Below, piece by piece: positions 7,235 through 62,966 of a stretch of DNA of 64,000 nucleotides. The DNA lies in contig NZ_MAGO01000004.1 in the NCBI RefSeq assembly GCF_001687335.1, forward strand, positions 62,001-126,000, in the 5' to 3' direction. This DNA comes from Dissulfuribacter thermophilus (lineage in GTDB: Bacteria > Desulfobacterota > Dissulfuribacteria > Dissulfuribacterales > Dissulfuribacteraceae). The notes under the pieces were generated by a model. That model was not told where the DNA came from and did not search any database. It was given only the letters and a program-made list of their open reading frames with translations. The translations under genes were made by a program, and so were the position numbers. Each line of letters starts with the position of its first letter. Within the stretch, counting starts at the first letter, position 1.

Positions 7235-7254
7235 GGCGCCTCCCCCCACATCCT

Positions 7255-12821: not shown

Positions 12822-12859
12822 CAGAATCTTCTCCTAATTTGACAATAGTTCAGTCCAGT

Positions 12860-41870: not shown

Positions 41871-42891
41871 ATGAAGCTAATAGGAATGTTTGATCTACAT
41901 ACGTAGGTTTAGCAAGATCGATAAAAACGGAAATCCTCTTAAATGACTTAACGAGGTAGTAGATGGGGAGATATTCAGGCCCATCTTACAGAAGGTAAGA
42001 GATCCGAATAGGAAATCAAAGGCTGGCCGCAGGCCATTTGATGTAGTGCTTATGTTCAAGATTTTGATATTGCAGTCTTTGTATAATCTATCAGACGATG
42101 CCACAGAGGCCCAGATACTGGACCGTCTTTCTTTTATGAGTTTTTTGAATCTTAGTATTGGAGATCGTGTTCCAGATGCCAAGACCATATGGTTATTCAG
42201 AGAACGCCTCAAAGAGGCCGGCATACTGATGGATCTCTTTAGGCAATTTGACAGTTATTTAATAGAGCACGGTTTTGAGGCTCGTAAGGGCCAGATTGTA
42301 GATGCCAGTATAGTGTCTGTTCCGAAGCAGCGGAATACACGTAATAAAAATGCTGGGATAAAGAAAGGAGATAAGAATCCTGACTTGTCTGAAAACATGA
42401 ATAGGCAGAAAGACACAGAGGCTCGTTGGACTAGAAAACATGGGAAAGCATATTTTGGGTACAAGAACCATATTCCCATAGATGTAGAGCATAAGTTCAT
42501 CAGAAAGTTTGTAGTGACAGATGCCTCTGTACATGACGGTCAAGTCTTGAAGGATATTTTGCATGATCATAACACAAGCCGCAAGGTATGGGCTGACTTT
42601 GCCTATAGAAGCAGGAAGAATCTTTTGTACCTGTATCTGAATGGATTTAAAGAATACATTCAGCGGAAGAGCTGTCGGTATGCCAAACTGACCCAAAAAG
42701 AGAAGCGAGGGAACCGGACGAAATCTAGGATACGTTCCAGAATAGAACACGTATTTGGAGTCCACCTTCAAAGAGCCGGGACCCTGATTGTTCGAACCAT
42801 AGGATTAGCGCGAGCCTGGATCAAGATAGAGTTAAGGAATTTATCCTATAACTTGGATCAATATAGTCTACTAGTATCCAGAACGGGGTAA
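41871..42891 (+). pseudogene. IS5-family DDE transposase with broken N-terminus
   Basis: The main frame (from about 42046) encodes 281 residues of an IS5-family transposase: DARWTRKHGKAYFGYKNHI with a metal-binding region, VVTDASVHDGQ, and the Y-(2)-R-(3)-E-like region NRTKSRIRSRIEHVFG. Upstream, MKLIGMFDLH starts at 41871 in another frame. One extra base near 41901 and a TGA in place of an arginine-type codon near 41940 separate it from the rest (RFSKIDKNGNPLK-stop-LNEVV). The gene is therefore inactive unless a truncated product works. It is much better preserved than the copy at 38127, suggesting a later arrival. Terminal inverted repeats could not be defined. Confidence 0.82.
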
Positions 42892-47480: not shown

Positions 47481-48692
47481 ATGAATGATGTTATTGCCAA
47501 ACCAAACAAAGTGTTGCTTGCCTTTCTTGGGGAAAAAGACAGACAAGAATACCTTGAAATTATAAGTAATTTATCTAAAAATGCTTGGTATCAAATTATC
47601 AAGGAATCCAACCGTCATCTGGTGTCATCTTTATTGTATCTTCGATTTAAACAACGCGATCTTATAAAAGAGATCCCACCACAAGTTCAAGAAGTATTGC
47701 ATAAAATTTATTTACATAATTCGGCAATCAATTTAAAAAAATACCATACGTTAGCCCAAATATTAAAAATTCTAAATCAAGCAGATATCCCGGTTATAGT
47801 CCTTAAAGGGGGTTATTTAATAGAAAACGTATATCAAAATATTGGAGCACGAGAATTATGCGACTTTGATCTCCTTTTTCAAAAAAAAGACCTAGCAATG
47901 GCCGAAAAGGTTTTATTACGAGCGGGCTATTATAGTAAGGACTGCCCGGTTCTCTTGGATCTTCACTGGTATGTTGAACAATATTTAAATATTAACATGG
48001 CCAGAATTTGGCAGCGTGCTGAGCCAGCAACCATAGCTGGGCAAAAGGTTATGAGCCTTTCTCCAGAAGATCTGATAGTCCATTTATGTGTGCATAACGG
48101 TTTTCATCATCTGTTTCAGAAGGTAGGTTTGAGGGCGTTATGTGATTTACAAGCAACCATTGGCCATTTTGAGCAGGCCATTAACTGGGATCAACTAATT
48201 GCTGTTGCGGATGAATGGGGAGTCCGAGATTGCGTAGCACTTTGTTTGCAACTCACCAATGACCTACTTGGTACCCCAGTACCAAACAAGATACCCAAAA
48301 AGCTTAAATCTTCAAATTTTGATCCTTTGCTTCTGAATTGGGCACGAACGCAGATTTTTGATAAAAGTTCTGATAAGTACGGACAGAAAATTTCCATTTA
48401 TTTTTGGAAGCTTTGGAGTGAAGCATCTTGGAGAGAAAAACTTGCTTCTTTCAAACGTTTGATTTTCCCATCATCTGAGTACTTGTCGCAAAAATATCCC
48501 ACCGTATCAGGGAGCAGTACAAACAAGTTATTTTATCTCCTCAGGTTATGGGATCATCTTGGGCATTATTGTAGTGTTCTTTGGCAGATTTTAATGCGGA
48601 ATCCCGAAATGCTCAGAGAAATTGAAAAACAAAATAAAAATATCACTATAATGAAAAAATTAGCTAAAGATGCTATTTGGATTTACAGATAA
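47481..48692 (+). CDS. Nucleotidyltransferase-family protein (NTP_transf_5 type)
   Basis: A 403-residue protein whose centre has the nucleotidyltransferase-like core: IPVIVLKGGYLIENVY followed by GARELCDFDLLFQKKDL, where the D-x-D pair is the expected metal site, and LLDLHWYVEQY. C-terminal regions include LSPEDLIVHLCVHNGFHH, typical of the NTP_transf_5 family. This family accompanies lasso-peptide genes with HPr-kinase-like partners in other bacteria, which fits the genes from 52.7 kb on, although unrelated genes lie between. AT-rich like the block upstream. No strong ribosome site; the ATG at 47481 is the best guess. Its reaction is unknown. Confidence 0.78.
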   Translation: MNDVIAKPNKVLLAFLGEKDRQEYLEIISNLSKNAWYQIIKESNRHLVSSLLYLRFKQRDLIKEIPPQVQEVLHKIYLHNSAINLKKYHTLAQILKILNQADIPVIVLKGGYLIENVYQNIGARELCDFDLLFQKKDLAMAEKVLLRAGYYSKDCPVLLDLHWYVEQYLNINMARIWQRAEPATIAGQKVMSLSPEDLIVHLCVHNGFHHLFQKVGLRALCDLQATIGHFEQAINWDQLIAVADEWGVRDCVALCLQLTNDLLGTPVPNKIPKKLKSSNFDPLLLNWARTQIFDKSSDKYGQKISIYFWKLWSEASWREKLASFKRLIFPSSEYLSQKYPTVSGSSTNKLFYLLRLWDHLGHYCSVLWQILMRNPEMLREIEKQNKNITIMKKLAKDAIWIYR

Positions 48693-48810
48693 TTTTTCCA
48701 TAATACAAATTACCTATGGATCTAGACAAATTGACAAATTTTATTTCGTTAACTGTTAATTTTAATATTAATCTTGAAAATTAAACATTAATCCTTTAAA
48801 ACCCCTCTCA

Positions 48811-49434
48811 ATGACCTACCTGTGGAAAATTATTGCATTTACCATCCTTACCCTCCTCTCCTATTTTCTACACCAATATATTGATCACCTTGCTTTCCAT
48901 CAGAGCTTCCATAGCTTAGCCCCAAGCTGGATAACATGGGCGGTATTCGCCCTTTGGGCCATTTTCCTTACAGCGGTTTTTTCTGCATATGTGTCCGGAC
49001 CAGGGAAAAGGCGTGGGGCCAGTGTCTTCCTATTTGGTTTGACCCTTGTAACCATAGTTATTGGCACGACCATGCCTGGAAGTTGGAAGATGACGATACT
49101 ATTAGATATTTATGCCTTTATCCAAAAGATTTATGGATTAACCCTGGCACATTTTGCCAGGACAGTGAATATAAGCAAGTTAGCACATCCCCTCCTCTTT
49201 GGCTTTCTTGGGGGGATATGCTGGCTACTTGCCAGAGACAGATCGCCTTTTATGAAGGCTGCTGACATCGCCATGCTTGCCGGGGCCACAGAGATGATGC
49301 AGTTGTTTGTAAAGGGAAGGACTGCAAGTTTTCTGGATTTTTTGCTTGATTGCGCTGGTGGAGCAGGTGGGGTAGTACTTTTCCTGTTGTTCATAAGCTT
49401 GCTGCGCAGGGCAGAGAAAAAGGCGGTGATCTGA
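48811..49434 (+). CDS. VanZ-like membrane protein
   Basis: A 207-residue protein with about six hydrophobic segments and the VanZ-like features: HPLLFGFLGGICWLLA, then ATEMMQLFVKGRTASFLDFLLDCAGGAGG, corresponding to the family's E-x-x-Q and D-x4-D-x3-N/G pattern. Function of VanZ-like proteins outside glycopeptide resistance is poorly known; they are common in exopolysaccharide loci. The stop TGA at 49432-49434 is in the same frame as the following ABC ATPase, whose homology begins immediately after it. Confidence 0.75.
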   Translation: MTYLWKIIAFTILTLLSYFLHQYIDHLAFHQSFHSLAPSWITWAVFALWAIFLTAVFSAYVSGPGKRRGASVFLFGLTLVTIVIGTTMPGSWKMTILLDIYAFIQKIYGLTLAHFARTVNISKLAHPLLFGFLGGICWLLARDRSPFMKAADIAMLAGATEMMQLFVKGRTASFLDFLLDCAGGAGGVVLFLLFISLLRRAEKKAVI

Positions 49435-50421
49435 ATCCTAGTAGTAAAGGATCTTCATAAGACTTTTAGGGAAAGGAGTCTCAAAAAGCTTTTACTGGGG
49501 CGCCCCAGGAGGCACTTCAGTGCTTTGAACGGGGTGTCGCTTTCTGTCAACAGGGCAGAGGTTGTGGGGCTTTTAGGCCCCAATGGAGCTGGTAAAACCA
49601 CCTTTATCAAGATACTTGCAACCCTTATTGAACCAGACAGGGGAAAGGTCTTTGTAGGCGGCTATGATGTAGAGAAGCATCCCTCCAAAGTTCGAAGGAT
49701 CATAGGCCTTGTAAACACCAACGAACGTTCTTTCTACTGGCGCCTCACTGGCAGGCAAAATCTGGACTTCTTTGCAACTCTCTATGGGCACTGGGGCAAA
49801 GAAAAGGAGAAGAGAATAGACGAGGCCCTTGAGACAGTAGGGCTTACCAACATGGCAGATAGGCGTTTTTTCTGTTATTCCACTGGACAGCGCCAACGAC
49901 TTGCCATCGCAAGGGCACTTTTGAGCAATGCCCGACTCATCCTTTTTGATGAGCCAGCCAGTAGCCTCGACCCACTGGCCGCCTCAGAGCTTGCGCGTTT
50001 TACGCGAAATCGCCTGGTGAATGAACAGGGCATGACCGTAATCTGGTGTACCCATAATCTTACCGAAGCAGAAATAGTAAGTGACAGGATTGCCTTTATG
50101 AAAAATGGAAGGGTCGTCGCGTGTGGGAGCCTCGAGGAAATACGCCACAGGCTGGCAAGGGAAGAAACCTATGAAATAGAGATAGAATACGACTCCCTGG
50201 CCCAAATCAGGATTGAACACCCGTATGATGTGCTGAAAAAGGGATCGAGCCGACTAGTGCTTCGGGTAAAGGTTGGTTCAGATGAGCTCCCTGGATTCAT
50301 CTCCTTTCTGTGCAGAAAAAAGGTGAAGGTCTATTCCTGTAGGAGGATCGAGATGGGACTAGAGGAGATATTCAGGATTTTGTCATCCGGAGATGAAAAC
50401 TGGCTAGAGGTAGAAAATTGA
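49435..50421 (+). CDS. ABC-2 type exporter ATP-binding protein (start codon unclear)
   Basis: An ABC ATPase with Walker A (GLLGPNGAGKTTFIK), Q-loop (GLVNTNERSFYW), signature (YSTGQRQRLAIARA), Walker B (LILFDEPASSLD) and switch His (WCTHNLTEAE), then a C-terminal regulatory stretch. The first usual start codon in frame is TTG 49525. However, the sequence before it (ILVVKDLHKTFRERSLKK) is clearly the family's first beta-strand, so the real start lies near 49435, where only ATC/ATT-like codons exist, directly after the VanZ stop in the same frame. It is coupled to the permease by a 4-base overlap. Together they could export polysaccharide, lipid or the lasso peptide. Confidence 0.82.
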   Translation: MLVVKDLHKTFRERSLKKLLLGRPRRHFSALNGVSLSVNRAEVVGLLGPNGAGKTTFIKILATLIEPDRGKVFVGGYDVEKHPSKVRRIIGLVNTNERSFYWRLTGRQNLDFFATLYGHWGKEKEKRIDEALETVGLTNMADRRFFCYSTGQRQRLAIARALLSNARLILFDEPASSLDPLAASELARFTRNRLVNEQGMTVIWCTHNLTEAEIVSDRIAFMKNGRVVACGSLEEIRHRLAREETYEIEIEYDSLAQIRIEHPYDVLKKGSSRLVLRVKVGSDELPGFISFLCRKKVKVYSCRRIEMGLEEIFRILSSGDENWLEVEN

Positions 50422-51239
50422 ACCTTTCTGGAGAGATCCGTAAGGCCGCTGCATTTCTCTTGAGAGATCTTCAACTGGCAATGGGCTATCCCCTCAAATT
50501 TGCCAGCCAGTTGGTAGGGATATTGGCCTCAACCTTTATGTTCTACTACATATCAAGACTTGTGGACCAGAATGGATCAGGCTCTCTAGCTGCCTATGGA
50601 GGAAACTATTTTCCGTTTCTCTTGGTGGGAATCGCACTTTCTGACTACCTTATGTTTTCCATAAATGCGCTTTCTAATGAGGTACGAAAGGCCCAGGTCA
50701 TAGGGACATTTGAGGCAATACTCGTTACGCCGACCCACCCGTCTCTCATTCTCTTTTCATCGTGTCTCTATTCTTTTCTTTTTACCAGTGTACGCATACT
50801 CTTTTATTTCCTGGCAGGAACAGTCCTCTTTGGTGTACGTTTTCCACCAATATCTCTTTCTGCCCTCACTGTATCGCTCATACTGACCATACTGCCCTTT
50901 TTAGGCATAGGGCTTTTGTCTGCAGCCATTATCATTGTGTTTAAACAGGGTAACCCATTGACCTGGATATTTGGTTCTTTTTCCGGGCTATTGTCTGGGG
51001 TGTTTTATCCTGTATCTGTGTTGCCCCACTGGCTTCAGCCATTTGCCGCTTTTATTCCCCTTACTTATGGGCTAGATGCCGTGCGAAAGGTCCTGTTGAC
51101 TGGCGCTGGGATACTTGAAGTTTCGCACCAGCTCCTGGTCCTCCTATTTTTCTCTATAGTATTTCTTGGAGTCGGATTGGCTGCAGTGGCCTATGCACTG
51201 AAGATCGCACGAAAAGATGGGACATTGTTGTACTATTGA
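50418..51239 (+). CDS. ABC-2 type exporter permease
   Basis: A 273-residue membrane permease of the ABC-2 family with six predicted helices and the family-typical C-terminal region (GLLSGVFYPVSVLPHWLQPFAAFIPLTYGLDAVRKVLL). The start is TTG 50418, overlapping the ATPase stop (TTGA), with GAGG seven bases before it. Such pairs export drugs, lipids, polysaccharides or peptides. The lasso cluster 1.5 kb downstream has no exporter of its own, so this pair is a candidate, though separated from it by the YeeE gene. Confidence 0.87.
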   Translation: MNLSGEIRKAAAFLLRDLQLAMGYPLKFASQLVGILASTFMFYYISRLVDQNGSGSLAAYGGNYFPFLLVGIALSDYLMFSINALSNEVRKAQVIGTFEAILVTPTHPSLILFSSCLYSFLFTSVRILFYFLAGTVLFGVRFPPISLSALTVSLILTILPFLGIGLLSAAIIIVFKQGNPLTWIFGSFSGLLSGVFYPVSVLPHWLQPFAAFIPLTYGLDAVRKVLLTGAGILEVSHQLLVLLFFSIVFLGVGLAAVAYALKIARKDGTLLYY

Positions 51240-51560
51240 TTAGTAATAGGACGTTCCCTATCTCAACTAGAGTTGATCAGACAGATGTGAATACCTTTGA
51301 TTTTTGCAAAAAATAATCGTAAGCCCGAATGTAATGTTCCTTGAGTGCCAAAACTAGTTGATTCCATGTCAAAGCTGCTTTATTCCAGATTATGCGCTCC
51401 AAATAGAGAACAAAGAGATTTTTTCTTTACATTTCAGATGATTAGCAATATTATACCTTTTGTTACAATTCACGCAAAAAATAAACTGGATTTATACTGA
51501 AAGGACATTTCCTAACGGAAATCAATTTGACAAAGCGACTTACAGGAGGGGGAGCGTTCT
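51240..51560. other. Gap before the YeeE/YedE gene
   Basis: About 320 AT-rich bases with no supported gene. They probably contain the promoter of the transporter gene; TATACT at 51493-51498 could be a -10, but a matching -35 is not clear. The strong ribosome site AGGAGGGGG is at its end. Confidence 0.35.
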
Positions 51561-52577
51561 ATGGTAGAAATACTGTTTTTTGGGTTCTTATTTGGTGCAA
51601 TCATCTACCTTTCAAAATTGAACAGAAATGATGTTATCAGTGGGTTAGCAATGCTGAAAGATTTCAGTGTTGCAAAAGCCATCGCAGTGGCAATTGGTCT
51701 AGGCGCAATCTTATTGAACACGGAAATAGCACTGGGGCTTGCCACGTATCACATTAAACCTTTTATTTCAGGTGGAGTAATACTAGGCGGCCTGTTGTTT
51801 GGAGTGGGAATGGCCATTTTGGGATATTGCCCAGGTACATTGCCTATATCCCTAGGGCAGGGATCAATAGATGCATTGTTTGGTATTTTCGGAGGGTTAC
51901 TAAGTGGGTTTGTATTTACGCTGTTATTCCCACACATGCAAGGCATATTAGGGCCTAATCTTGGTAAAATTTCATTATACACCCTTTATGGTAGCGATCC
52001 TGTGAAATTTTTTGTCCTCACCTTTATCATTGGTGCTGGCCTTATAGCAGTGGCATTTTTTATTCACAAAATAGAGGGAGCAAAAAATTTACGTTGGTTT
52101 TATGGTGGAATCGCCCTTGCCATTTTGAATTCAATTGCTTGCCTTTCAGCCACTACAGGACGACCCATTGGTGCATCGACTTCTTATCCTTACCTAGCTG
52201 ATATAATAGTCGGATTCACTCAAAATTCTTATTTTGAAAAGATCCAGGCCCCTGGGCATTGGGAAGTGATCTTTTTGGCAGGTGCATTGATTGCGAGCCT
52301 TGTATTGTCAGTGATGAGAAAGGAATTCAAAATCACATTTGTTCATTCTCGCTGGGCATCTATTAAAGGCGATGCTGTTCCAAAACGTTTGACTTGGGCC
52401 TTTATCGGTGGTTTCATCCTCATATTTGGTGCAAGGATGGCAGGTGGATGCACTAGCGGCCATGTTATATCAGGGGGAATGCAACTTGCCCTCAGCAGTT
52501 GGACCTTTGCAATATTTGTCTTCATTGCATTCCTGATTACAGGTAAACTCTTTTATAAGACCCCCAAAAAACTCTAA
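51561..52577 (+). CDS. YeeE/YedE-family sulfur-compound transporter
   Basis: A 338-residue inner-membrane protein with about nine helices and the two conserved cysteine motifs of the YeeE/YedE (TsuA) family: GYCPGT near residue 94 and GARMAGGCTSGH near residue 294. TsuA takes up thiosulfate through these cysteines. In a sulfur-metabolising organism it could import thiosulfate or related sulfur species. It stands alone, with its own ribosome site before and a strong hairpin after it, so it is probably an independent gene lying between exporter and lasso genes. Confidence 0.9.
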   Translation: MVEILFFGFLFGAIIYLSKLNRNDVISGLAMLKDFSVAKAIAVAIGLGAILLNTEIALGLATYHIKPFISGGVILGGLLFGVGMAILGYCPGTLPISLGQGSIDALFGIFGGLLSGFVFTLLFPHMQGILGPNLGKISLYTLYGSDPVKFFVLTFIIGAGLIAVAFFIHKIEGAKNLRWFYGGIALAILNSIACLSATTGRPIGASTSYPYLADIIVGFTQNSYFEKIQAPGHWEVIFLAGALIASLVLSVMRKEFKITFVHSRWASIKGDAVPKRLTWAFIGGFILIFGARMAGGCTSGHVISGGMQLALSSWTFAIFVFIAFLITGKLFYKTPKKL

Positions 52578-52599
52578 CACCTCGCCTTCTAGATACCTT

Positions 52600-52624
52600 G
52601 GGGAGCACATTTATTGTGCTCCCC
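52600..52624 (+). terminator. Terminator hairpin after the YeeE gene
   Basis: GGGGAGCACA and TGTGCTCCCC form a perfect 10-bp stem with a 5-base loop, 22 bases after the stop. The T-run is poor, but the stem is strong and isolates the lasso genes from upstream transcription. Confidence 0.7.
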
Positions 52625-52708
52625 ATCAAACAGTTCAGTCAAAAACCAATGAGCCAATAGGCCTCAAATAAGGGGAAACCTTGAATTAGGGTTGCAACTT
52701 CGGCAAAA

Positions 52709-52736
52709 TTGCTAGCTGCATGATCCGGGATAATAA
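52709..52736 (+). promoter_or_regulatory. Candidate promoter of the lasso gene cluster
   Basis: TTGCTA, 16 bases, then TAATAA, ending 34 bases before the PqqD-like start. Matches are moderate, but the position between a terminator and the first lasso gene is right. Confidence 0.35.
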
Positions 52737-52770
52737 TGCACAATGATAGGAACCAAAAAGGAGATGGGAA

Positions 52771-53058
52771 ATGGAGGGAAAGATCGTTGACCAGACTATT
52801 TTCCAACGGACGGACGGAAAGATATCGGCGGATCTTGAAGGCGAAGAGGTCATACTCGATATGGACAGCGGCATGTACTTTGGATTGAACGAAGTAGGCC
52901 AGTTCATATGGAAAAGACTTGAAGAACCCTCTTCCTTTCGAAGCCTTTTGGATTCCATGCTGTCAGAATATGATGTAACAGAGGAGCAATGCCGTCAGGA
53001 CCTAAAAACTTTTTTGAATGCCCTGCTGGAGGCCGGCCTCATCCAGTTAGTAGAATGA
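52771..53058 (+). CDS. Lasso peptide RRE protein B1 (PqqD family)
   Basis: A 95-residue PqqD-like RiPP recognition element that should bind the leader peptides and bring them to the protease and cyclase. The family pattern is visible: EVILDMDSGMYFGLNEVGQFIWKRL and later EQCRQDLKTFLNALLEAGLI. AAGGAG seven bases before the ATG supports the start. It is followed after 4 bases by the B2 protease. In lasso systems B1 recognises YxxPxLxxxGxxxxxT leaders, and both precursors in this cluster have that pattern. Confidence 0.9.
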   Translation: MEGKIVDQTIFQRTDGKISADLEGEEVILDMDSGMYFGLNEVGQFIWKRLEEPSSFRSLLDSMLSEYDVTEEQCRQDLKTFLNALLEAGLIQLVE

Positions 53059-53062
53059 ACAA

Positions 53063-53512
53063 ATGGGGAAATTATCCAGGTTCATATGCCTTGAACCTCT
53101 AGAGAAAAGGCTTTTTTTTCTCTCCTTAGGCTGGATATTATTTACGCGATTTGCCCTTACCATATTTCCTTTTAAAAAGACCCTAGCTTTGGTCGAATCA
53201 CAGGCAAAAAAATATCTGAAAAATCCCAAAGCCACTTCTGGAGAGATTTCTGTTGCCAGGCTAGCGTGGCTGATTTCACGCGCTGCCCATATAGTGCCTG
53301 GCTCTACCTGCCTAGTCCAGGCCTTAGCTGGAAAGATAATCTTTGCCTCGCAGGGGATAAATCCCAAGTTTCATATTGGTGTAAACATGCAAGAAAAACA
53401 TGACCTCGAGGCCCATGCCTGGCTGACCCTCGATGGAGAGGTGATATTGGGGCAGATGCCGAACCTTTCTAAATTCAAACCATTGTCTGGGGCCTCACTG
53501 CTAGATATATGA
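53063..53512 (+). CDS. Lasso peptide leader protease B2 (transglutaminase-like)
   Basis: A 149-residue B2 protein that cuts the leader from the precursor. The papain/transglutaminase-type triad is visible: Cys83 in STCLVQALA, His118 in LEAHAWLTL and Asp124 in LDGEVI. Length matches the family. The stop overlaps the start of the cyclase gene by 4 bases (ATGA), so the two are coupled. The ribosome site is weak and translation probably depends on the preceding B1 gene. Confidence 0.9.
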   Translation: MGKLSRFICLEPLEKRLFFLSLGWILFTRFALTIFPFKKTLALVESQAKKYLKNPKATSGEISVARLAWLISRAAHIVPGSTCLVQALAGKIIFASQGINPKFHIGVNMQEKHDLEAHAWLTLDGEVILGQMPNLSKFKPLSGASLLDI

Positions 53513-55455
53513 GTGCAATTGCCGGAATCTGTTATTGGGATGGAAGAGACGTAGCCAGAGAAGAGCTTTTGGCAATGGCCAAGGCCCTGGCCCATCGCGG
53601 TCCTGATGGGAAAAATATCTGGCATAAAGGCCCTATTGGCCTCGTGCACCTAATGCTCCATACAACTCCCGAATCCCTAAATGAAAGACTGCCCCTAGAG
53701 GATAAGGCAACCGGATTGGTCATAACTTCGGATGCAAGGATCGACAATCGTGAAGAACTGCTTGAATCCCTCGGTGTTAAGGGACGGGAGGCATCCCAGA
53801 TGCCAGACAGTGAGCTAATACTCAAGGCATATAAAAAATGGGGAAGAAAGTGCCCAGAAAGACTCTTAGGAGATTTTGCCTTTGCAATATGGGACTCGCG
53901 GGAACGCACCCTTTTTTGCGCGAGAGACCACATGGGGGTGAAACCCTTTTACTACTATGCCTCCAGGGATTTTTTCGCCTTTTCCACTGAAATAAAGGGA
54001 CTTTTGGCACTGAACAATGTCTCGCGTAGGATCAATGAAGTACGCATAGCCGACTTTCTTGCTGCCATAGTTTTGGATAATGAAAGTACATTTTGGCGTT
54101 CGATACTACGCCTGCCTCCTGCGCATTTTTGTGTGATTCGAAATGGTATTTTTGAGAAAGGTGCTTACTGGCAACTACCCTCTGAACCTAAAAAACATAT
54201 TAAGAGAGATAGTGAATATGCTGAAGAGTTCCGTCATATATTCACAGAGGCAGTCAGATGCCGCCTTCGCTCTGCCTTTCCCCTGGGATCTTATTTGAGC
54301 GGAGGTCTCGATTCCTCTTCCATTGTATGTGTTGCCGCCGAACTTTATGAAAAAAAGGGCATCGATGGCCCCCATGTCTTTTCAGGTATTTTTGACGAAA
54401 TAGCCCAGTGTGATGAACGAAAATACTTTATGCCAGTAGTTGAAAGATATAATCTCCCCACCACTTTTGTTTATGCAGACCGCCTAGAGCCCCTTGCTGA
54501 GCTAGAGAAAATGCTCAATGAACAGGACGAACCCTTTTTTGCTCCGCATATATTCATGAGTCGGGCCCTTCTGGGCTTGGCCAGGGAGAATGGTTTCCGA
54601 ATAATGCTGGACGGACATGACGGTGACAATACGGTTTCCTACGGGACAGGGCTTTTATTAGAGCTAGCTGGGGATTTCAAATGGCTCAAGTTGGCAAAGG
54701 AGTGTTATTGCCTAACGGACGGTTCACTACATGAGGCCTTGGAAATTGCCTATGTTGCCATACGACGAAGATGCGTGCCACTAAGTATAAAGTGTATGGC
54801 AAAGGTCGTCCGGCAAATTCTACACATCTTTAAAGCCGAAAGGCAAAAGGAATCTCAAGAGCTGATTAAGCCCCCTTGGCATAACATATTGAATGATGAA
54901 TTCATAAAGAAAACTGGTTTGATTGAGCGGTGGAGAGATTTCAAAAAAAACGATCCATACCGTGGAGATCGCGAATTCGAACGCCACCGCCGTGCACTGT
55001 ACCAACCTTTTATGCCCTATGGCCTGGAAGTCCTGGATCGATGTGTATCAAACTTTGGTATTGAGGCCAGATATCCTTATTTTGATAAAAGATTGATTGA
55101 GTTTTGTTTAGATCTTCCAGCACGTCTTAAATTACATCGCGGACTGAATAGATACATAGTACGATTTGCATTAAAGGATATACTTCCTGAATCTATTAGG
55201 AAAAGAAAAAATAAAAGTGATTTTACTGCGAATTTGATACACGGATTACGAGTAAGAGATAGAGATAGGCTTCAGCAGTTTTTGCAAAAAATTTCGCATG
55301 AACATAAAGAATTTTATCAGGTACAAGAAATAGAACGGATTAGAGAAGGCTTTTTGAACATGGATCAAAACCCTACTGCATCTGATGCATTTACCCTATT
55401 GAAAATACTTGTGTTGACTCTGTGGATCAGTAGTGCTAAAAATATTTTTCATTAA
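53509..55455 (+). CDS. Lasso peptide cyclase C (asparagine-synthetase-like)
   Basis: A 648-residue homologue of asparagine synthetase that activates the Asp or Glu side chain with ATP and joins it to the core's N-terminal amine. The N-terminal domain starts MSAIAGI: the catalytic Cys2 of real glutaminases is replaced by Ser, as expected for lasso cyclases, which need no ammonia. The ATP PP-loop is SGGLDSSSIV near residue 263. Further conserved parts are LDGHDGDNTVSYG, ARYPYFDKRLIEFCLDLP and RKRKNKSDF. It lies between B2 and the first precursor gene. Non-lasso amidotransferase is an alternative, but the context makes that unlikely. Confidence 0.9.
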   Translation: MSAIAGICYWDGRDVAREELLAMAKALAHRGPDGKNIWHKGPIGLVHLMLHTTPESLNERLPLEDKATGLVITSDARIDNREELLESLGVKGREASQMPDSELILKAYKKWGRKCPERLLGDFAFAIWDSRERTLFCARDHMGVKPFYYYASRDFFAFSTEIKGLLALNNVSRRINEVRIADFLAAIVLDNESTFWRSILRLPPAHFCVIRNGIFEKGAYWQLPSEPKKHIKRDSEYAEEFRHIFTEAVRCRLRSAFPLGSYLSGGLDSSSIVCVAAELYEKKGIDGPHVFSGIFDEIAQCDERKYFMPVVERYNLPTTFVYADRLEPLAELEKMLNEQDEPFFAPHIFMSRALLGLARENGFRIMLDGHDGDNTVSYGTGLLLELAGDFKWLKLAKECYCLTDGSLHEALEIAYVAIRRRCVPLSIKCMAKVVRQILHIFKAERQKESQELIKPPWHNILNDEFIKKTGLIERWRDFKKNDPYRGDREFERHRRALYQPFMPYGLEVLDRCVSNFGIEARYPYFDKRLIEFCLDLPARLKLHRGLNRYIVRFALKDILPESIRKRKNKSDFTANLIHGLRVRDRDRLQQFLQKISHEHKEFYQVQEIERIREGFLNMDQNPTASDAFTLLKILVLTLWISSAKNIFH

Positions 55456-55487
55456 GAATTTAAAAAGATTGTAGGTGGGGAAATTCT

Positions 55488-55682
55488 GTGAAAGATACAG
55501 AGTACGATATCAAGAAAACTAAAGAAAATCGTAAACAATACTCAGCTCCCATATTGAGCCGCCTTGGAACAGTAGAAAATTTAACCTTGGGTCACAAACA
55601 TGGGCCAGGTACAGACGCTGCTTTTATCTATCCCTATCATCATAAGGGAGGCAAAACTTTTTCTCATTCCCACCATAACTAA
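55488..55682 (+). CDS. Lasso peptide precursor A1, histidine-rich core
   Basis: A 64-residue precursor starting at GTG 55488 behind GGTGGGG. The leader (1-34) contains the lasso recognition pattern YxxPxLxxxGxxxxxT exactly: Tyr18, Pro21, Leu23, Gly27, Thr33, with Thr at the conserved -2 position. The predicted core is residues 35-64 (30 residues). It begins GHKHGPGTD, so Gly1 can be joined to Asp9 in a nine-residue ring. The tail contains AAFIYPY and ends SHSHHN. The core has seven histidines (2, 4, 17, 18, 26, 28, 29), so metal binding is possible. The core is longer than typical lasso peptides (about 15-24), so tail trimming may occur. It follows the cyclase by 32 bases. Confidence 0.86.
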   Translation: MKDTEYDIKKTKENRKQYSAPILSRLGTVENLTLGHKHGPGTDAAFIYPYHHKGGKTFSHSHHN

Positions 55683-55697
55683 CCGTACCAATTAATC

Positions 55698-56601
55698 GTG
55701 CATCAAAACTACCACAAATATAAGGCCTATGGACTTCATATAGAATCAGAGGTTTCCATTCCCGAATTTGAAACAGCTAGATTTTCAAAAAGTGATGTTT
55801 CAATAATCCTTAAGCGCCCTGAAAGAAGGCCGCCACGCCTTCGAGGACTGTCAGGAGTACGTTTTGAAATCGCTCAACAATATAGTTGTCTATTTTGGGA
55901 GGACGTAGGCCTCTTTCAGATAAAAAATGGAAATCAAATAACAGTATCACCCTTTCCTGGTGCGTACCGAGAGATTGTACGGCTGCCTATAGCTTCTACA
56001 TGTATGGCTCTCCTTCTTGAACAACGGGGGTTTTTAGTAATTCATGGAGCGGCATTGGAAATAAACGGCGCAGGCATTGTATTGGTGGGTGACAAGGGAT
56101 ATGGCAAATCCACCTTAACTGCATATCTTTTGGGCTCAGGAGGAAGACTCCTTTCCGACGATGTCACAGCCATCTCGATTGACAGCAATGGGGCATGGAT
56201 TATGCCTGGCTTTCCCTCCATGAAACTTTGGCCTGATGCTATTAATTTTTTGGGCAGAGATGCGGATGCGCTGAAACGGATTCATCCTTTGGTTGAAAAA
56301 CGTGCAGTGCCCATGACCTCAAATTTTGCAACAAATCCGACCAGATTGAGATCACTTTTCTTTCTGGGAAAAGCTGACACGATCCAATTGGAACAGGTTG
56401 ACAAGGCACACAGGGCTTCTACAACTCATGGATGGACTATTTTTTGCTTATCATATAAAAAAAATAGACAAAAAGGTGTCTGAGCGCAGATTTAGACTTT
56501 GTGCTGAAATTATGAAAGAATATCCTGTCTGGTTACTCAAACGGCCACCTAAACTTACGCTTCTGCCTAAGTCAGCTCAAAAGATCTACACTGTAATTTA
56601 A
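55698..56601 (+). pseudogene. HPr-kinase-like lasso tailoring protein, frameshifted near C-terminus
   Basis: Homologous to the HPr-kinase-like enzymes that phosphorylate lasso precursors in paeninodin-type clusters. Walker A is GDKGYGKSTL, followed by LLSDDVTAI with the expected acidic pair. The first frame runs 55698-56483 and ends in unrelated sequence (RASTTHGW...). The proper C-terminus (LLQLMDGLFFAYHIKK to WLLKRPPKLTLLPKSAQ) continues in the next frame from about 56398 to 56601. One inserted base (or two lost) near 56400-56420 explains this. Joined, the protein would be about 300 residues, the usual size. Either a recent loss of function or a sequencing error. It sits between the two precursor genes. 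Confidence 0.82.
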
Positions 56602-56671
56602 AAACCACTTGCATAAGCAATAATACTGGAGTAGTCTTTTAAATGGTAATTTGTCCGGGATGGAGGTAATC

Positions 56672-56830
56672 ATGAAAACAGCAAAAAAAAAGAAAAAACC
56701 TTATTTTTCTCCTAATATGAAAGAATTGGGGACAATCAAAGATCTAACCCAAGGATGCAGCGACGGAAATTATACTGATCAGGCTTTTCCTATCCACACT
56801 CCCAAAAAGGATCTCACGTTTACTCAATAG
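56672..56830 (+). CDS. Lasso peptide precursor A2 (small gene)
   Basis: A 52-codon gene with GGAGG five bases before ATG 56672. The Lys-rich leader (1-27) carries YxxPxMxxxGxxxxxT (Tyr11, Pro14, Met16, Gly20, Thr26), with Thr at -2 of the predicted cut. The core is residues 28-52 (25 residues), beginning GCSDGNYTD, so Gly1-Asp9 again gives a nine-residue ring. It has one cysteine at core position 2 and ends DLTFTQ. Sequence differs from A1 in nearly all core residues except Gly1, Gly5, Thr8 and Asp9. It lies 70 bases after the kinase-like gene and 39 bases before the next gene. Confidence 0.84.
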   Translation: MKTAKKKKKPYFSPNMKELGTIKDLTQGCSDGNYTDQAFPIHTPKKDLTFTQ

Positions 56831-56869: not shown

Positions 56870-57592
56870 ATGAAAATTCAAAAAAAAATCGTCCTTTTTT
56901 TTGTATTGCTATTAACATTAATGAGTGTAGCCTCTGGTTGGGCTATGACCCAAGAAGACCTCAAGGTGACTATTCAGAAAGAGGGTATTGACAAGGCAGT
57001 TGTGGCTGCGCTCGCCGAAGGCATGAATCCTCAAGAAATTGTGAAAGCGGCTCTTAATGTTGAAGGGCTTAACCCAAGGACCATACTTGTGGCGCTTTGT
57101 AAGGCAGGAGTAGATACAGATACCATTACAAAGGCAGCCCAAAGCAATAATGTTGGCCAGATGTTCGTGGCATCAGCGTGCCAGGAATGTAAGAAACTAG
57201 ACCACCTGAGGGTGGCTATTCAGAAAGAAGGTATTGACAAGGCCGTTGTGGCTGCACTCGCTGAAGGCATGAACCCTCAAGAAGTTGTTCAAACGGCTCT
57301 TTCTGTTGAAGGGCTTAACCCAAGGGCAGTTATCCTTGCTCTGTACAAGGCAGGCGTGGATCATGCATCCGTTGCCAATGCTGCGAAGAACAACAATATA
57401 GGCCAGATGATATTAGCATCTGCACGTGCTCAGTTTTTATCAAAGAATGGAGAGGGTGCCCAGCCTTATACTCCTGCTCCGGCACAGCCATACACGCCGG
57501 CAGCACCCGTGGCCCCAGCTCCACCAATACCAGGGCCTGCAGGAGGAGGTTTTGTCCCTGCTGAGCCATATGCCAGTCCTAGTACGCTATAA
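56870..57592 (+). CDS. Secreted protein with two tandem helical repeats and a Pro-rich tail
   Basis: A 240-residue protein with a signal peptide (KIVLFFVLLLTLMSVASGWA). Two near-identical units of about 75-80 residues follow, each with IQKEGIDKAVVAALAEGMNP, QE(I/V)V, then VEGLNPR and QM. The first ends with CQECKK, giving a cysteine pair. The tail from about 195 is Pro/Ala/Tyr-rich with AQPYTPA repeats. I do not recognise the family. It lies just after precursor A2 and before a terminator, so it may share the lasso transcript, or it may belong to the following envelope genes. Periplasmic or surface location is expected. Start has GGGGG nine to fourteen bases upstream. Confidence 0.8.
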   Translation: MKIQKKIVLFFVLLLTLMSVASGWAMTQEDLKVTIQKEGIDKAVVAALAEGMNPQEIVKAALNVEGLNPRTILVALCKAGVDTDTITKAAQSNNVGQMFVASACQECKKLDHLRVAIQKEGIDKAVVAALAEGMNPQEVVQTALSVEGLNPRAVILALYKAGVDHASVANAAKNNNIGQMILASARAQFLSKNGEGAQPYTPAPAQPYTPAAPVAPAPPIPGPAGGGFVPAEPYASPSTL

Positions 57593-57656
57593 CTTTGTTA
57601 ACGGCCGTTCATAAATCGTCTAATTCCTTCTTAACATAATGTGTGTTTTAGGCTAT

Positions 57657-57687
57657 AAGCCATCCTAAAAAGGGATGGCTTTGTTTT
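57657..57687 (+). terminator. Rho-independent terminator after the repeat protein
   Basis: AAGCCATCC and GGATGGCTT form a 9-bp stem with a 7-base loop, followed by TTGTTTTA. It closes the transcript that begins with the lasso genes. Confidence 0.82.
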
Positions 57688-57761
57688 ATGCCTAAAACCT
57701 CTTTATTGATGCTGGATACAAGAGCTATTACGCTCTAATAATCTATATAGCGAGGTGGGTT

Positions 57762-59129
57762 ATGAAAAGATTTCTTTGCTTCATTTTGTTGGTAATTGGG
57801 ACTACATTAGTTGCTTGGAATCATGCCAAGGCCGACGAAGACCCTACAGCTTCGGTCCAAACACAGCAGTTACCAGAATCTGATGCATTGGGCCTAAGCG
57901 ATGCGGAACTGGGTAAGAGGACCACACAAGAGCCGGAGGCCTATGTACCAGTTTCGGTTTTTGGGACAAAAGGTGGTTACGTCCACCCCTTCATGTCTGT
58001 TACCTTCCAGACGTCTGACAACATAAACTTTTCCAGTGTTAATGAAAAATCGGATTGGACTGCTATTTACACTCCTGGCATCTGGTTGGCCGCTCCTGCC
58101 AAGAAAGAAATATTTCTCAATCTAGATATATATAATACCTCACCAGGTGGACGATATAAGCAGATCTACACCCCAGAATCTTTTACTCGTTACCAGGCCT
58201 ACGCACTTTATGTAGCTGACATAGAAGATTTCCATAATCACTCGGAAAGGGATACAACCAAACAGTCTGCAGAGGCATATTTTCAGTACAACCTAAGAGG
58301 TGGCCTTTCTGCCAGTATTTACAATAAATATTTAGACACAGAAGACCCAATGGCAGTTGGCTATACCACTATTGGGACTGTTGTCGATAAATATGTAACC
58401 AACCTATTGGGTGTAATAGTAGAGTATGATTTTGGCCAAAAACTTCGTATGCGCTTTGACTATAACAATTTTTACCTGGACTATGATAAAGCCTTCAGTA
58501 AGGGGAAAAACAGGACTGACAACTCCTATTCAGTATATCTGTATTACGATTACTCGCCAAAGACTTCATTCTTTGGGGAGTATGAATATGTTGACGTAAA
58601 TTATGATATAAGCAAGATACAGGACAGTACGCAAAATTACGGGTATCTTGGCATCGAGTGGAAGCCAACGGAAAAGGTGGCGCTTAAGGCAAAAGCCGGT
58701 TTGATAAGTAGGGACAGTAAGAACCCAAAGGCCAATAGCGTCACTGATCCTGTAGTGGAATTGACCTATGAACACAAGTTCACAGCAAAAACCAATATGA
58801 AACTATTTTGGGCCAACAAGCTCAATGAATCAACCATCTCCACATCGGCTTACTCAAAAGACACCATAATCAACCTCCACCTCAACAAAATAATTACTGA
58901 AAAGATTGAAGCGACGCTCTTTTTGGATTACACACGTAATGACTTCAAAGGTACTATCGGAGCCAGTAGGGTCGACAATGTTTATACCATTGCACCTAAG
59001 GTCAGATACGTATTCAAAGATTGGTTGCAATCAGAAATTGGCTATGAGTATGTTAAAAGGACATCTGATGTCAATCTTGCGGAGTTTGAAGCAAATACAT
59101 TCTTTGTGCGTGTGTCTGCAGGTTTCTAA
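57762..59129 (+). CDS. Outer-membrane beta-barrel protein of the exopolysaccharide system
   Basis: A 455-residue protein with a signal peptide (FLCFILLVIGTTLVAWNHAKA). It has a pattern of alternating hydrophobic and polar strands through most of the length and ends in a C-terminal phenylalanine (FFVRVSAGF), the outer-membrane insertion signal. Aromatic-rich strands such as SYSVYLYYDYSPKTSFFGEYEYVDV support a barrel of roughly 16-18 strands. Proteins of this kind sit next to Wza/Wzc in several exopolysaccharide loci and may form the outer-membrane exit. It precedes the Wza-like gene by 7 bases. Confidence 0.83.
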   Translation: MKRFLCFILLVIGTTLVAWNHAKADEDPTASVQTQQLPESDALGLSDAELGKRTTQEPEAYVPVSVFGTKGGYVHPFMSVTFQTSDNINFSSVNEKSDWTAIYTPGIWLAAPAKKEIFLNLDIYNTSPGGRYKQIYTPESFTRYQAYALYVADIEDFHNHSERDTTKQSAEAYFQYNLRGGLSASIYNKYLDTEDPMAVGYTTIGTVVDKYVTNLLGVIVEYDFGQKLRMRFDYNNFYLDYDKAFSKGKNRTDNSYSVYLYYDYSPKTSFFGEYEYVDVNYDISKIQDSTQNYGYLGIEWKPTEKVALKAKAGLISRDSKNPKANSVTDPVVELTYEHKFTAKTNMKLFWANKLNESTISTSAYSKDTIINLHLNKIITEKIEATLFLDYTRNDFKGTIGASRVDNVYTIAPKVRYVFKDWLQSEIGYEYVKRTSDVNLAEFEANTFFVRVSAGF

Positions 59130-59136
59130 CAAGGCT

Positions 59137-59934
59137 ATGAGTTGTAAAAAACTGATTTTTCTAGTTCTGGGAGCCCTGTTTGTCTTCGTAAGCGCTAGTT
59201 TTGCCAGTTCGGGTGGTTACGTTGTTGGCGAAGGTGATGTGCTGAGGATAACCGTTTATGACCATCCAGATCTTGAAACCAAAGTACGAGTCAATGGAGA
59301 GGGGCAGATACTAATGCCCCTCTTGGGCCATGTGGATGTGGCAGGCCTTACTGTATCCCAGATTTCAAAGAAACTGGCAAAGATGCTTGCAGACGGTTAC
59401 CTGGTTGATCCCCAGGTCAACGTATTCATAGAGGAATATGGTAGTAAAAAGGCCGTTATCCTAGGCATGGTGAAGAATCCAGGCCTCTATGAACTCAGTG
59501 GCCCAACAACCCTTTTAGAGCTTATCTCAAAGGCAGGGGGGCTTTCTAAAGACGCTGGTAACAAGGTCACAATCAAAAGAATTGACCCAGACGGAAAGAA
59601 GAAGGTCATTAATATTGATCTTAAGGCCTTGATGGAGGGCGGAGACATATCACTTAACATTCAGATAAAGGATGGAGACAACGTGTATGTCTCCAAGGCA
59701 GGGATGGTTTACGTAACTGGGGAGGTGAAGGAACCAGACGCCTATAAAATAGATGAAGGGACCACTGTGATCAAAGCAATAGCCCTTGCCGGAGGTTTTA
59801 CTGGTAAGGCTGCAAAGGGCAAAATAAAGATTATTCGGATGGTTAATGGCAAAAAGAAAGTACTAAAAAATGTCCCCTTAGATACAGCGGTTTTACCTGA
59901 AGATGTGATAGTGGTGCCTGAAAGTTTCTTTTAA
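59137..59934 (+). CDS. Polysaccharide export protein (Wza family, SLBB domains)
   Basis: A 265-residue periplasmic/outer-membrane export protein. After a signal peptide (KLIFLVLGALFVFVSASFA) comes the Poly_export domain (GEGDVLRITVYDHPDLETKV, QILMPLLGHVDVAGLT) and two SLBB domains (VILGMVKNPGLYELSG and VYVTGEVKEPDAYKIDEG). The frame is open far upstream into the barrel gene, but ATG 59137 with AAGG and the signal peptide is clearly the start. Unlike Wza, there is no lipobox cysteine at the cleavage site and no visible C-terminal amphipathic helix. The protein may therefore need the neighbouring barrel as outer-membrane pore. Confidence 0.9.
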   Translation: MSCKKLIFLVLGALFVFVSASFASSGGYVVGEGDVLRITVYDHPDLETKVRVNGEGQILMPLLGHVDVAGLTVSQISKKLAKMLADGYLVDPQVNVFIEEYGSKKAVILGMVKNPGLYELSGPTTLLELISKAGGLSKDAGNKVTIKRIDPDGKKKVINIDLKALMEGGDISLNIQIKDGDNVYVSKAGMVYVTGEVKEPDAYKIDEGTTVIKAIALAGGFTGKAAKGKIKIIRMVNGKKKVLKNVPLDTAVLPEDVIVVPESFF

Positions 59935-60035
59935 TGAATGGCCCATAAATAGGGGCATCAACTGGATTGCGACAAAGAGATACACTGTATCTTTGTTGTT
60001 TCAGTGAAAATATAAACATAGGATGAGGTTGGGTA

Positions 60036-62225
60036 ATGGAGGTTCAACAGATAAATGAGCAGGAAATCCACCTGCGAGACTACATAAGGGTCCTAAAAAA
60101 GCGAAAAAAAATAATCATTACTTTTGCAACTATAACTATTGCAGTCGTAGTGCTGGCAACCCTTGCTGCAACACCCTATTACAAGGCAAGTGTACAGGTC
60201 CTCATAGAAAGAAACTACGATGCCGAACTCATGGGAAGGATGTACATCCCCTATGATCCAGAATTTTTGGAAACCCAATTTAACATCATAAAAAGCAGAA
60301 ATGTCATAGACAGGGTAGTAAAGAAACTCAAACTTGATACGGCATACAGACAACATTTCTTCAAAGAAGAGCAGCGGTCGTTCCTTGCACCAGTGGTCTC
60401 CTGGATCAAAGACACCATCAAATCGGTTATGCCATCGAAAAAAGGAACAGCACAGGATGAAGAGGATATTTCTCTTGAAGCCCAGGTAAAACCTCCAAGC
60501 GATGCAGATATCATAGCAAAAATAATCCAAAGTAGGCTCTCTGCCAAACCTGTACCCAACACCAAGATCGTCACTATAAGCTATATGGATGAAAATCCTG
60601 TCCTCGCGAGCCTCATAGTGAACACCATAGCAGAGGCCTATATGGACGAAATGCTAGACATCAAGATGAATGCCAGCCGTTATTCCATTAAATGGATGAC
60701 CCTCAAGGCAGAAGAGGAAAAGAAAAAACTCGAGGCCTCGGAAAGGGCCCTTCAGGCATACACGCGAGAACACGACATAGTCACCGTTGAAGACAGGCTG
60801 GCAGTGATCCCACAGAAACTCCAAGAGTTTAGCACCCAGCTCTCCAAGGCCCAGGCAAAGAGAAAGGAATTGGAAGAAGTCTACCGCCAGATTCAACAGG
60901 CCGGAAATGACACTGCAGCACTGGAAGCCCTGCCGATTTTCAGTGAAAACAAGACCCTCCAATCACTGCGCGATCAAATACTGAAGGCAGATCAGCACAT
61001 TGCAGAACTGTCCAAAAAATATGGCCCCAAGCACCCCCTCATGATCAAGGCAGTAGAAGATCGTGAAGTCCTTTTGAGAGAAAAGCAAAAGGAACTCCAG
61101 CGAATAGTACATTCCACAGAAATGAATTACAAACTGGCCAAATCCACTGAGGAAAATCTGAAGGATCTCCTTGAACAGACCAAACAGGAACTCATCAACC
61201 TGAAGGACCGGATGATCCAGTATGACATACTAAAAAGAGAAGCAGACACAAATCGTGCCCTCTACGATGCCCTCATAAAACGTATAAAACAGCAGAGCGC
61301 TAGTGAACAGACCCAAACTGTAAACATCTGGGTGGTAAAAAAGGCAGAGGTCCCTGTTGCGCCTGCAACACCCAAAAAGAAACGAAATCTCTTACTGGCA
61401 GTTGTGTTGGGACTCTTTGGCGGCATAGGAATGGCATTTTTCGTGGAATACCTGGACAACACTGTAAAATCAGTGGAGGAAGTGGAACAAAAAACCGGAC
61501 TCCCTGTCCTCACAGTGGTTGCGGACGTCAAAGAAAAGCATGAATCCATCGACAGACAGGTGCTAGAGCATCCACGTGGCCCAATAGCAGAGAGCTTCAG
61601 GGCCTTGAGGTCCCAACTCATGCTTTCTTCTGCAGAACATCCGCCACGCTCAATCCTCATTTCCAGCGCAGTGGAGGGAGAAGGCAAAACAGCCTTGGTT
61701 GTAAACCTTGCAACCACTCTGTCTGAGGCCAATCGTTCGGTACTGGCAATAGACTGTGATTTGCGAAAACCCAGACTTCACAAGGCATTTAACCTCGTAA
61801 ATGACAAGGGCTTGAGTTCGTATCTCGTAGGAGAGGCAGGAGAACAGGATGTCATTGTAAATCTATCAGAACCAAAGATAGATGTCATGACCTCTGGGCC
61901 CATCCCCCCAAACCCAGCAGAACTTCTTGCCTCAAACCGCATGGAAGAACTTGTAACACGTATGAAGGACAAATATGACTTCGTACTCTTTGATTCGTCT
62001 CCCATATTGAGTGCTACAGACAGCCAGATTCTCAGCCGTCTGGCCGAAGGGACGATACTTGTTATTCGTGCAGGAGAGACCACCTTTGAACAGTTACAAG
62101 GCGCCCTGAGACTCTTCAGGAGCGTAAATGCAAATATCCTTGGTATTGTACTAAATGGCGTGGATCTGGGTAAGAATGAGCAATATTACTACCACGGATA
62201 TTATTCCTATTATGGATCAGAATAG
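60036..62225 (+). CDS. Polysaccharide co-polymerase with tyrosine kinase domain (Wzc/BY-kinase)
   Basis: A 729-residue fusion of a Wzz chain-length domain and a bacterial tyrosine kinase. The N-terminal helix (IIITFATITIAVVVLATLAA) starts the Wzz part, a long coiled-coil periplasmic region covers about 190-420, and a second helix (LLLAVVLGLFGGIGMAFFVEYL) precedes the cytosolic kinase. The kinase has Walker A (SAVEGEGKTALVVNLA, near 545), Walker A' (VLAIDCDLRKPRLH, near 570), Walker B (FVLFDSSP) and the autophosphorylated C-terminal tyrosine cluster (EQYYYHGYYSYYGSE). It controls chain length with the CpsB-type phosphatase encoded 24 bases downstream. Confidence 0.94.
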   Translation: MEVQQINEQEIHLRDYIRVLKKRKKIIITFATITIAVVVLATLAATPYYKASVQVLIERNYDAELMGRMYIPYDPEFLETQFNIIKSRNVIDRVVKKLKLDTAYRQHFFKEEQRSFLAPVVSWIKDTIKSVMPSKKGTAQDEEDISLEAQVKPPSDADIIAKIIQSRLSAKPVPNTKIVTISYMDENPVLASLIVNTIAEAYMDEMLDIKMNASRYSIKWMTLKAEEEKKKLEASERALQAYTREHDIVTVEDRLAVIPQKLQEFSTQLSKAQAKRKELEEVYRQIQQAGNDTAALEALPIFSENKTLQSLRDQILKADQHIAELSKKYGPKHPLMIKAVEDREVLLREKQKELQRIVHSTEMNYKLAKSTEENLKDLLEQTKQELINLKDRMIQYDILKREADTNRALYDALIKRIKQQSASEQTQTVNIWVVKKAEVPVAPATPKKKRNLLLAVVLGLFGGIGMAFFVEYLDNTVKSVEEVEQKTGLPVLTVVADVKEKHESIDRQVLEHPRGPIAESFRALRSQLMLSSAEHPPRSILISSAVEGEGKTALVVNLATTLSEANRSVLAIDCDLRKPRLHKAFNLVNDKGLSSYLVGEAGEQDVIVNLSEPKIDVMTSGPIPPNPAELLASNRMEELVTRMKDKYDFVLFDSSPILSATDSQILSRLAEGTILVIRAGETTFEQLQGALRLFRSVNANILGIVLNGVDLGKNEQYYYHGYYSYYGSE

Positions 62226-62255
62226 CCTCCAGTACCTTTGTGATAGGCGTTGAGT

Positions 62256-62954
62256 ATGATAGATATCCACTGTCACATTCTGCCTGGCCTCGATGATGGT
62301 GCCGATGATGAAGACGAAGCCCTGAGGATGGCTAGTATTGCTGTTTCCGACGGTATAAAATATGCCATTGCAACCCCACATGTTTTGACCCCATCCCTTT
62401 CGCCAGAAGAAATCAGGATCAAGGTGGAGTCACTAAATACGCTATTCAACCACCATGGGCTGGACTTTGAGGTCTTTCCAGGCGCTGAAGTCGGCTTTTA
62501 TTCTGATTTGTCCAATTTCGACCACTATCATTTAAATGGTGGCCCATACCTTCTCCTTGAATTTCCCCATGGTCAACTCCCTCCAACAGCAGCAGAACGG
62601 ATATCCTTGTTGCTACGAGACGGCCGAAAGCTGATTCTGGCCCACCCAGAGAGAAATGAATCCGTTATCATGGAGCCAAAAAGGCTTCTGGACCTTGTTG
62701 GCCCCAATGTATTCGTCCAGATATCTGCCGGGAGCCTTACAGGGGAATTTGGGCCTGATGTCCAACGTTGTGCCATGTATCTCCTCAAACAGAAGATGGT
62801 TAGTTTTATAGCCACAGATGCGCATTCCTCGCACCATCGCCCGCCCGTCTTGTCCAAAGCAGTGAAAGTGGCTGCCAAAGTCATAGGTAAGGATACTGCC
62901 AAACAGCTAGTGACCACCAATCCCATGCAGATTATTGATGGGCTCAGGGTATAG
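62256..62954 (+). CDS. CpsB/CapC-type tyrosine-protein phosphatase (PHP domain)
   Basis: A metal-dependent phosphatase of about 232 residues that removes phosphate from the tyrosine cluster of the Wzc-type kinase. The PHP metal motifs are seen in order: DIHCHILPGLDDGADD at the N-terminus, IATPHV near 42, FPGAEVGFYSD, LAHPERNESV and ATDAHSSHHRPP. ATG 62256 gives MIDIHCH as in homologues; a TTG two codons upstream is also open. Gram-negative bacteria more often use low-molecular-weight Wzb phosphatases; the CpsB form is typical of Firmicutes but occurs in Desulfobacterota. Confidence 0.92.
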   Translation: MIDIHCHILPGLDDGADDEDEALRMASIAVSDGIKYAIATPHVLTPSLSPEEIRIKVESLNTLFNHHGLDFEVFPGAEVGFYSDLSNFDHYHLNGGPYLLLEFPHGQLPPTAAERISLLLRDGRKLILAHPERNESVIMEPKRLLDLVGPNVFVQISAGSLTGEFGPDVQRCAMYLLKQKMVSFIATDAHSSHHRPPVLSKAVKVAAKVIGKDTAKQLVTTNPMQIIDGLRV

Positions 62955-62966
62955 AAAGGTAGAGTG

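Follow-up and report, generated by a model that had tools for sequence, protein, structure and literature searches.

A 64,000-nucleotide stretch of the Dissulfuribacter thermophilus genome (all of it hereafter the window) carries a lasso-peptide biosynthetic cluster at positions 52771-56830, with the gene order B1, B2, C, precursor A1, kinase K and precursor A2, all on the forward strand. Very probably it belongs to the kinase-plus-nucleotidyltransferase type (paeninodin/pseudomycoidin/Bsf) and was inserted in front of an exopolysaccharide (EPS) export operon. All six genes lie where a first-pass annotation had placed them, and the roles of A, B1, B2, C and K that it assigned around two precursors hold up, with B2, C and the A1 leader passing NCBIfam cut-offs. 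It overlooked a frameshift in the K open reading frame (ORF) and the probable start of the cluster at 47481.

An asparagine-synthetase-like cyclase distinct from the amidotransferases, a lasso-type B2 and a PqqD-family B1 identify the locus. B1 (52771-53058) is a PqqD-like recognition element of ribosomally synthesized and post-translationally modified peptides (PF05402, 74.5 bits; cut-off 23.4), whose nearest NCBIfam model is lasso_PqqD_Bac (NF033536), at 78.3 bits just under the cut-off of 80. B2 (53063-53512) is a transglutaminase-like leader peptidase (NF033537, 76.5 bits, cut-off 33; PF13471, 77.3 bits). Of the Cys/His/Asp set proposed for it, Cys83 and His118 are invariant in 75/75 aligned B2 proteins; the Asp is present six residues past the His but is not among the positions conserved above 90%. 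C (53509-55455) is an asparagine-synthetase homologue scoring 729 bits against the lasso cyclase model NF033535 (cut-off 525). It starts MSAI, confirming the reported change of Cys2 to Ser, and an automatic N-terminus search across 89 cyclases likewise finds Ser at that position in 79.

The EPS context, the homologies to PqqD and HprK and an EpsL-like outer-membrane protein nearby would also fit a modification system of the HPr-rel-A or PEP-CTERM kind, related to PqqD/HprK and associated with polysaccharide, in which an EPS amidotransferase stands in place of the cyclase. Family scores make this extremely improbable: C falls far under the cut-off of the XrtA/PEP-CTERM amidotransferase model TIGR03108 (241 vs 817 bits), K reaches 43.5 of the 200 bits needed for HprK_rel_A and B1 20.1 of the 35 needed for PqqD_rel_X, and membership of those systems was rejected on these scores, whereas B2 exceeds its lasso cut-off and precursors with a lasso leader and Asp9 exist.

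Both precursors combine a YxxPx[LM] leader and Thr at position -2 with a core that has Gly at position 1 and Asp at position 9, between which a ring is predicted in each. A1 (55488-55682) has the leader YSAPILSRLGTVENLTL (55488-55589) and the core GHKHGPGTDAAFIYPYHHKGGKTFSHSHHN (55590-55679), a His-rich sequence with seven His in 30 residues and the same ring layout as A2; it passes the lasso leader family NF033521 (21.7 bits, cut-off 19) and matches a precursor profile with E=1.5e-6. A2 (56672-56830) has the leader YFSPNMKELGTIKDLTQ (56672-56752) and the core GCSDGNYTDQAFPIHTPKKDLTFTQ (56753-56827), and likely starts at the ATG at 56672, behind a GGAGG, rather than at the TTG at 56651. The two genes had been described as short ORFs with a YxxP-type leader and a Gly1...Asp9 core, and the full motif (Y/W..P ... 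G ... T-x, then a core with Asp/Glu at about 7-9) has exactly two occurrences in the window, one at each of these genes, and none in 40 Markov-simulated windows. The leaders read YFSP and YSAP, so neither carries the WxxP of the paeninodin family.

Retention of the small genes beside B1/B2/C had been set beforehand as the test that could refute the annotation. A scan of genome contigs and another of the phylum together yielded 88 loci that have a related cyclase, and at least one precursor-like ORF accompanies C in 83 of the 88; the pattern was relaxed, since a stricter form misses the window's own genes, and a few of these ORFs are visibly chance matches. The order B1-B2-C-A-K, followed by an ABC transporter and a PF14907 nucleotidyltransferase (N), recurs in cyanobacteria and elsewhere. 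Among close relatives the cluster is patchy: 1 of 119 exceeds the cut-off, and it is the window itself; most of the hits in this search are probably ordinary asparagine synthetases or EPS amidotransferases. Precursor number varies. Locus L188 (genome G526; 6449-12886) has three precursors between C and K, with an EPS export operon about 30 kb away and glycosyltransferases between, and in a Hassallia cluster (L101, 11152-11533) two precursor genes stand in tandem and encode nearly identical cores. A lasso-type cluster of B1, B2, C, K and ABC genes also occurs in a metagenome-assembled genome (MAG) labelled Methanobacteriaceae archaeon (L132); it sits on a long tree branch and may reflect a binning error or an archaeal acquisition.

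The first-pass annotation judged both cores unlike known lasso peptides. This fails for A2, whose tail matches Priestia aryabhattai, cyanobacterial and acidobacterial cores, and holds better for the His-rich A1. The A2 core belongs to a family with the pattern G-x-x-x-G-x-x-x-D-x-x-F-P-x-x-T-P-x-x-x-[LV]-T-F-[ST], found also in Desmonostoc, Nostoc, Calothrix and a Pyrinomonadaceae MAG and, more loosely, in genome G519 of the same phylum; its similarity to 7 of 8 family cores has p=0.0005. By tblastn, A2 finds a Nostoc plasmid (E=3e-4) and a Priestia paeninodin-family peptide (E=4e-3, 48.8%). The nearest annotated match is a 'paeninodin family lasso peptide' on a Priestia aryabhattai plasmid (WP_142339111.1; NYTDQAFPIHTPKKDLTF against EYTDAAFPTHTPKGDLTF). 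A paeninodin-type core is therefore found in A2 only. A1 resembles A2 weakly (p=0.003) and other cores mostly at p=0.01-0.2, and a second core-family link through A1 was rejected as too weak.

K (55698-56483) is an HPr-kinase-like precursor kinase that keeps the catalytic His, the P-loop and the Asp-Asp pair and finds its counterparts in related clusters with E values as low as ~1e-50. Its N-terminal ~230 residues are in frame; past about residue 230 the sequence diverges, and the last ~30 residues are out of frame. The missing C-terminus continues in the +1 frame (56398-56601), where it aligns with K C-termini and matches that of the L072 kinase with E=2e-4. The frame changes near 56400-56440 and the +1-frame tail is intact, with no extra stops; the change is either a recent mutation or a sequencing error. 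The presumed acceptor is missing as well. Ser occurs within the last three residues of 17/17 cores from 14 related Desulfobacterota loci, and at the very end in 12 of the 17 (background Ser 11%), whereas the window's cores end TFTQ and SHHN, with Gln and Asn last and no Ser in the final three positions. The paeninodin arrangement of a C-terminal Ser phosphorylated by an intact kinase is thus absent from this assembly. The joint loss of kinase and acceptor Ser points to phosphorylation having been abandoned here, though the frameshift may be a sequencing error.

The same observations could mean that the whole cluster is decaying and that its peptides are perhaps unmodified or no longer made, all the more as a genome of the same phylum (G406) has B2 alone next to an EPS operon, as though the other genes had disappeared. 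We consider this unlikely: the reading frames of B1, B2 and C are open and their sequences well conserved, each precursor retains leader, Gly1 and Asp9, the A2 tail is evidently constrained, and a kinase tail free of extra stops speaks for a change that is recent or a sequencing error. The lone G406 gene (L203, 13177-13611) lies by the EPS operon and a VanZ gene in a genome where no close cyclase was found, and is possibly a remnant of a lost lasso cluster.

By analogy with homologous systems, maturation of the two peptides would begin with B1 binding the YxxP leaders of A1 and A2, and B2 would cut each leader after Thr-x. C would then use ATP to activate Asp9 and join it to Gly1, forming a ring of nine residues through which the tail is threaded, and a two-gene ABC exporter would carry the peptides outside. 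In relatives with an intact system, phosphorylation of the C-terminal Ser would fall to K, and addition of a sugar to the phosphate to N. With K frameshifted and the terminal Ser absent from both cores, this decoration is probably reduced or lost here; a sequencing error behind the frameshift, or use of a different residue, would change that.

The genes for export and for the candidate sugar transfer lie upstream of B1. N (47481-48692, forward strand) is a PF14907 nucleotidyltransferase (161.8 bits, cut-off 31.2) and a PsmN/BsfN-like candidate tailoring enzyme, in which Lys109-Gly110, Asp128 and Asp130 are invariant in 44/44 aligned homologues. It had been called an unusual associate of a lasso cluster. 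That view does not stand: PF14907 genes are the usual partners of kinase-bearing lasso clusters, lie 3' of K in many lasso clusters and recur in about half of the related loci, and such clusters have been published. The exporter consists of a DrrA-like ATPase (49525-50421), whose listed TTG start at 49525 may be internal, and a weakly DrrB-like ABC-2 type permease (50418-51239), both on the forward strand and candidates for the D function. Because homologues of this pair lie upstream of B1, the permease directly so, in five Desulfobacterota relatives (L188, L190, L191, L194 and L204), N and the exporter are probably part of the cluster, which would extend it to 47481-56830. Between N and the exporter is a VanZ-family membrane protein gene (48811-49434, forward strand; PF04892/NF037970), a possible accessory gene; L204 (G388) and L196 (G461) also have one next to their lasso clusters, and L203 has one adjoining B2. 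Promoter scans gave nothing informative.

As the first-pass annotation proposed, the cluster sits in a polysaccharide locus. The export operon (56870-63998, forward strand; its last gene is cut by the window end) starts 40 bp past the end of A2 on the same strand and forms the context of the cluster rather than part of lasso biosynthesis. Its six genes encode a small secreted repeat protein, an EpsL-like outer-membrane protein, a Wza-like protein, a Wzc-like tyrosine autokinase, a PHP phosphatase and an O-antigen ligase/polymerase. The first of these (56870-57592) has two internal repeats and a Pro-rich tail and no Pfam match over cut-off; its counterpart recurrently adjoins the EpsL-like gene in related EPS operons (L202, L203, L204, L205, L227 and L229). 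Genome G027, of the same order (L227), has the export operon without lasso genes.

The polysaccharide link is real and recurrent. In a cyclase tree from a quick, short search, supported by the Shimodaira-Hasegawa-like approximate likelihood ratio test (SH-aLRT) only, the window's C groups with those of G388 (L156) and of a Desulfobulbaceae MAG (L073) at 97% SH-aLRT, and the clusters of both genomes abut the same operon, in the order secreted protein, barrel, Wza, Wzc, PHP, ligase. The Desulfobulbaceae relative is among the nearest for both cyclase and EPS genes, which fits a host in Desulfobacterota. In the G388 family an EPS-type Wzc mostly occurs once per genome, and in 5 of the 12 genomes with both C and such a Wzc the two lie on one contig at most 35 kb apart, against an expectation of ~0.2-0.3; if they are taken as three independent lineages, the odds come to ~0.001-0.003. 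No judgement is possible for many of that family's remaining genomes, where C and Wzc fall on different short contigs. About 20 cyanobacterial loci have Wzc-like genes upstream of B1, at a distance of a few kb. We partly rejected these as independent support, as there are ~8-23 Wzc-like genes per genome and the Nostocales loci share descent.

Several observations weigh against this reading of the locus. The A2 leader scores under the NF033521 cut-off (13 vs 19 bits), and an apparently unrelated insert, a YedE-like sulphur transporter gene (PF04143; 51561-52577, forward strand), splits the ABC genes from B1, which weakens the case for a single operon. G470 has C and EPS genes 500 kb apart, the contigs of several relatives' lasso clusters lack EPS genes, and the non-independence of related genomes makes the co-location odds softer than the binomial. 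EPS co-location could be chance or generic clustering of accessory genes with no functional meaning, and the peptides ordinary antimicrobials, as known lasso peptides often are. The patchy distribution of the cluster and the clusters away from EPS genes fit this, as do variable EPS loci as insertion hot spots; an ORF of transposase-like, IS5-type appearance lies at 42046-42891 in the upstream polysaccharide gene region. We lean against this explanation while granting it a fair share of possibility, since the same export operon adjoins the cluster in several genera, Wzc precedes B1 in the cyanobacterial loci, if partly by shared descent, and the same pattern has been published for Bacilli, where capsule loci are often the site of genes for paeninodins and for a family of linear phosphorylated peptides, whose role is described as unknown (PMC13381572).

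The recurring position next to polysaccharide genes hints at a shared surface or biofilm role of these lasso peptides, although an envelope or biofilm role, and any link between peptide and polysaccharide, is speculative. A tail of the paeninodin type, DxxFPxxTPxxDLTF, has been conserved in Desulfobacterota, Cyanobacteria, Acidobacteria and Bacillota even as cyclase identity fell to <30%. Since that tail is kept across four phyla and the clusters recur in polysaccharide loci, the peptides may have a conserved envelope target or a phospho-sugar link to the exported polysaccharide instead of a secreted-antibiotic role, an idea to which we give a low probability. The conserved tail offers a defined probe with which to look for a shared target, and with the EPS location recurring, the envelope or biofilm idea can be put to the test by removing genes. 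Co-localisation in Bacilli is already published; new here are its extension to Gram-negatives and the presence of a paeninodin-type core there. A search limited to the open literature turned up no account of this cluster, nor of any lasso cluster linked to EPS in Desulfobacterota.

The closest known systems each share part of this arrangement. The Bacillota paeninodins (PadeA/PadeK; Priestia WP_142339111.1) likewise have separate B1 and B2, a cyclase and an HPr-like kinase, and their clusters are likewise near polysaccharide genes (PMC13381572); the A2 tail DQAFPIHTPKKDLTFTQ nearly equals the Priestia tail DAAFPTHTPKGDLTFES. The window differs in its Gram-negative host, in enzymes 29-41% identical to those of the Priestia cluster, in its frameshifted K and cores without a C-terminal Ser, and in a YxxP leader where paeninodins have an almost invariant WxxP (PMC13381572), WKKP in Priestia. 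Paeninodins have been described as restricted to Bacillota (PMC13381572, May 2026), and the present cluster, Gram-negative, with an almost identical tail and next to a Wzc/Wza operon, widens the statements made there on that restriction and on capsule loci. The pseudomycoidin cluster (PMC9266682) and the Bradymonas sediminis bsf cluster (PMC10368454), like the window, have A, B1, B2 and C with a kinase and a nucleotidyltransferase, and Bsf also has an ABC transporter. PsmK phosphorylates pseudomycoidin on its C-terminal Ser, and the peptide requires PsmN to receive a hexose (PMC9266682); the bsf cluster holds both bsfK and bsfN (PMC10368454). The Bsf leader has Ile at -2 and its ring closes at Asp8, in contrast to Thr(-2) and Asp9 here; the window has two precursors, unlike either system, and the available text describes no EPS neighbourhood for them. 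Nostocales and other cyanobacterial clusters with NCBIfam lass_lactam_cya cyclases share the cyclase family (38-44% identity to the window's C) and the order B1-B2-C-A-K-ABC-N, and several of them share the A2 core motif FPxxTPxxxLTFS, but many have a fused MsbA-like transporter where the window has its two-gene ABC-2 exporter.

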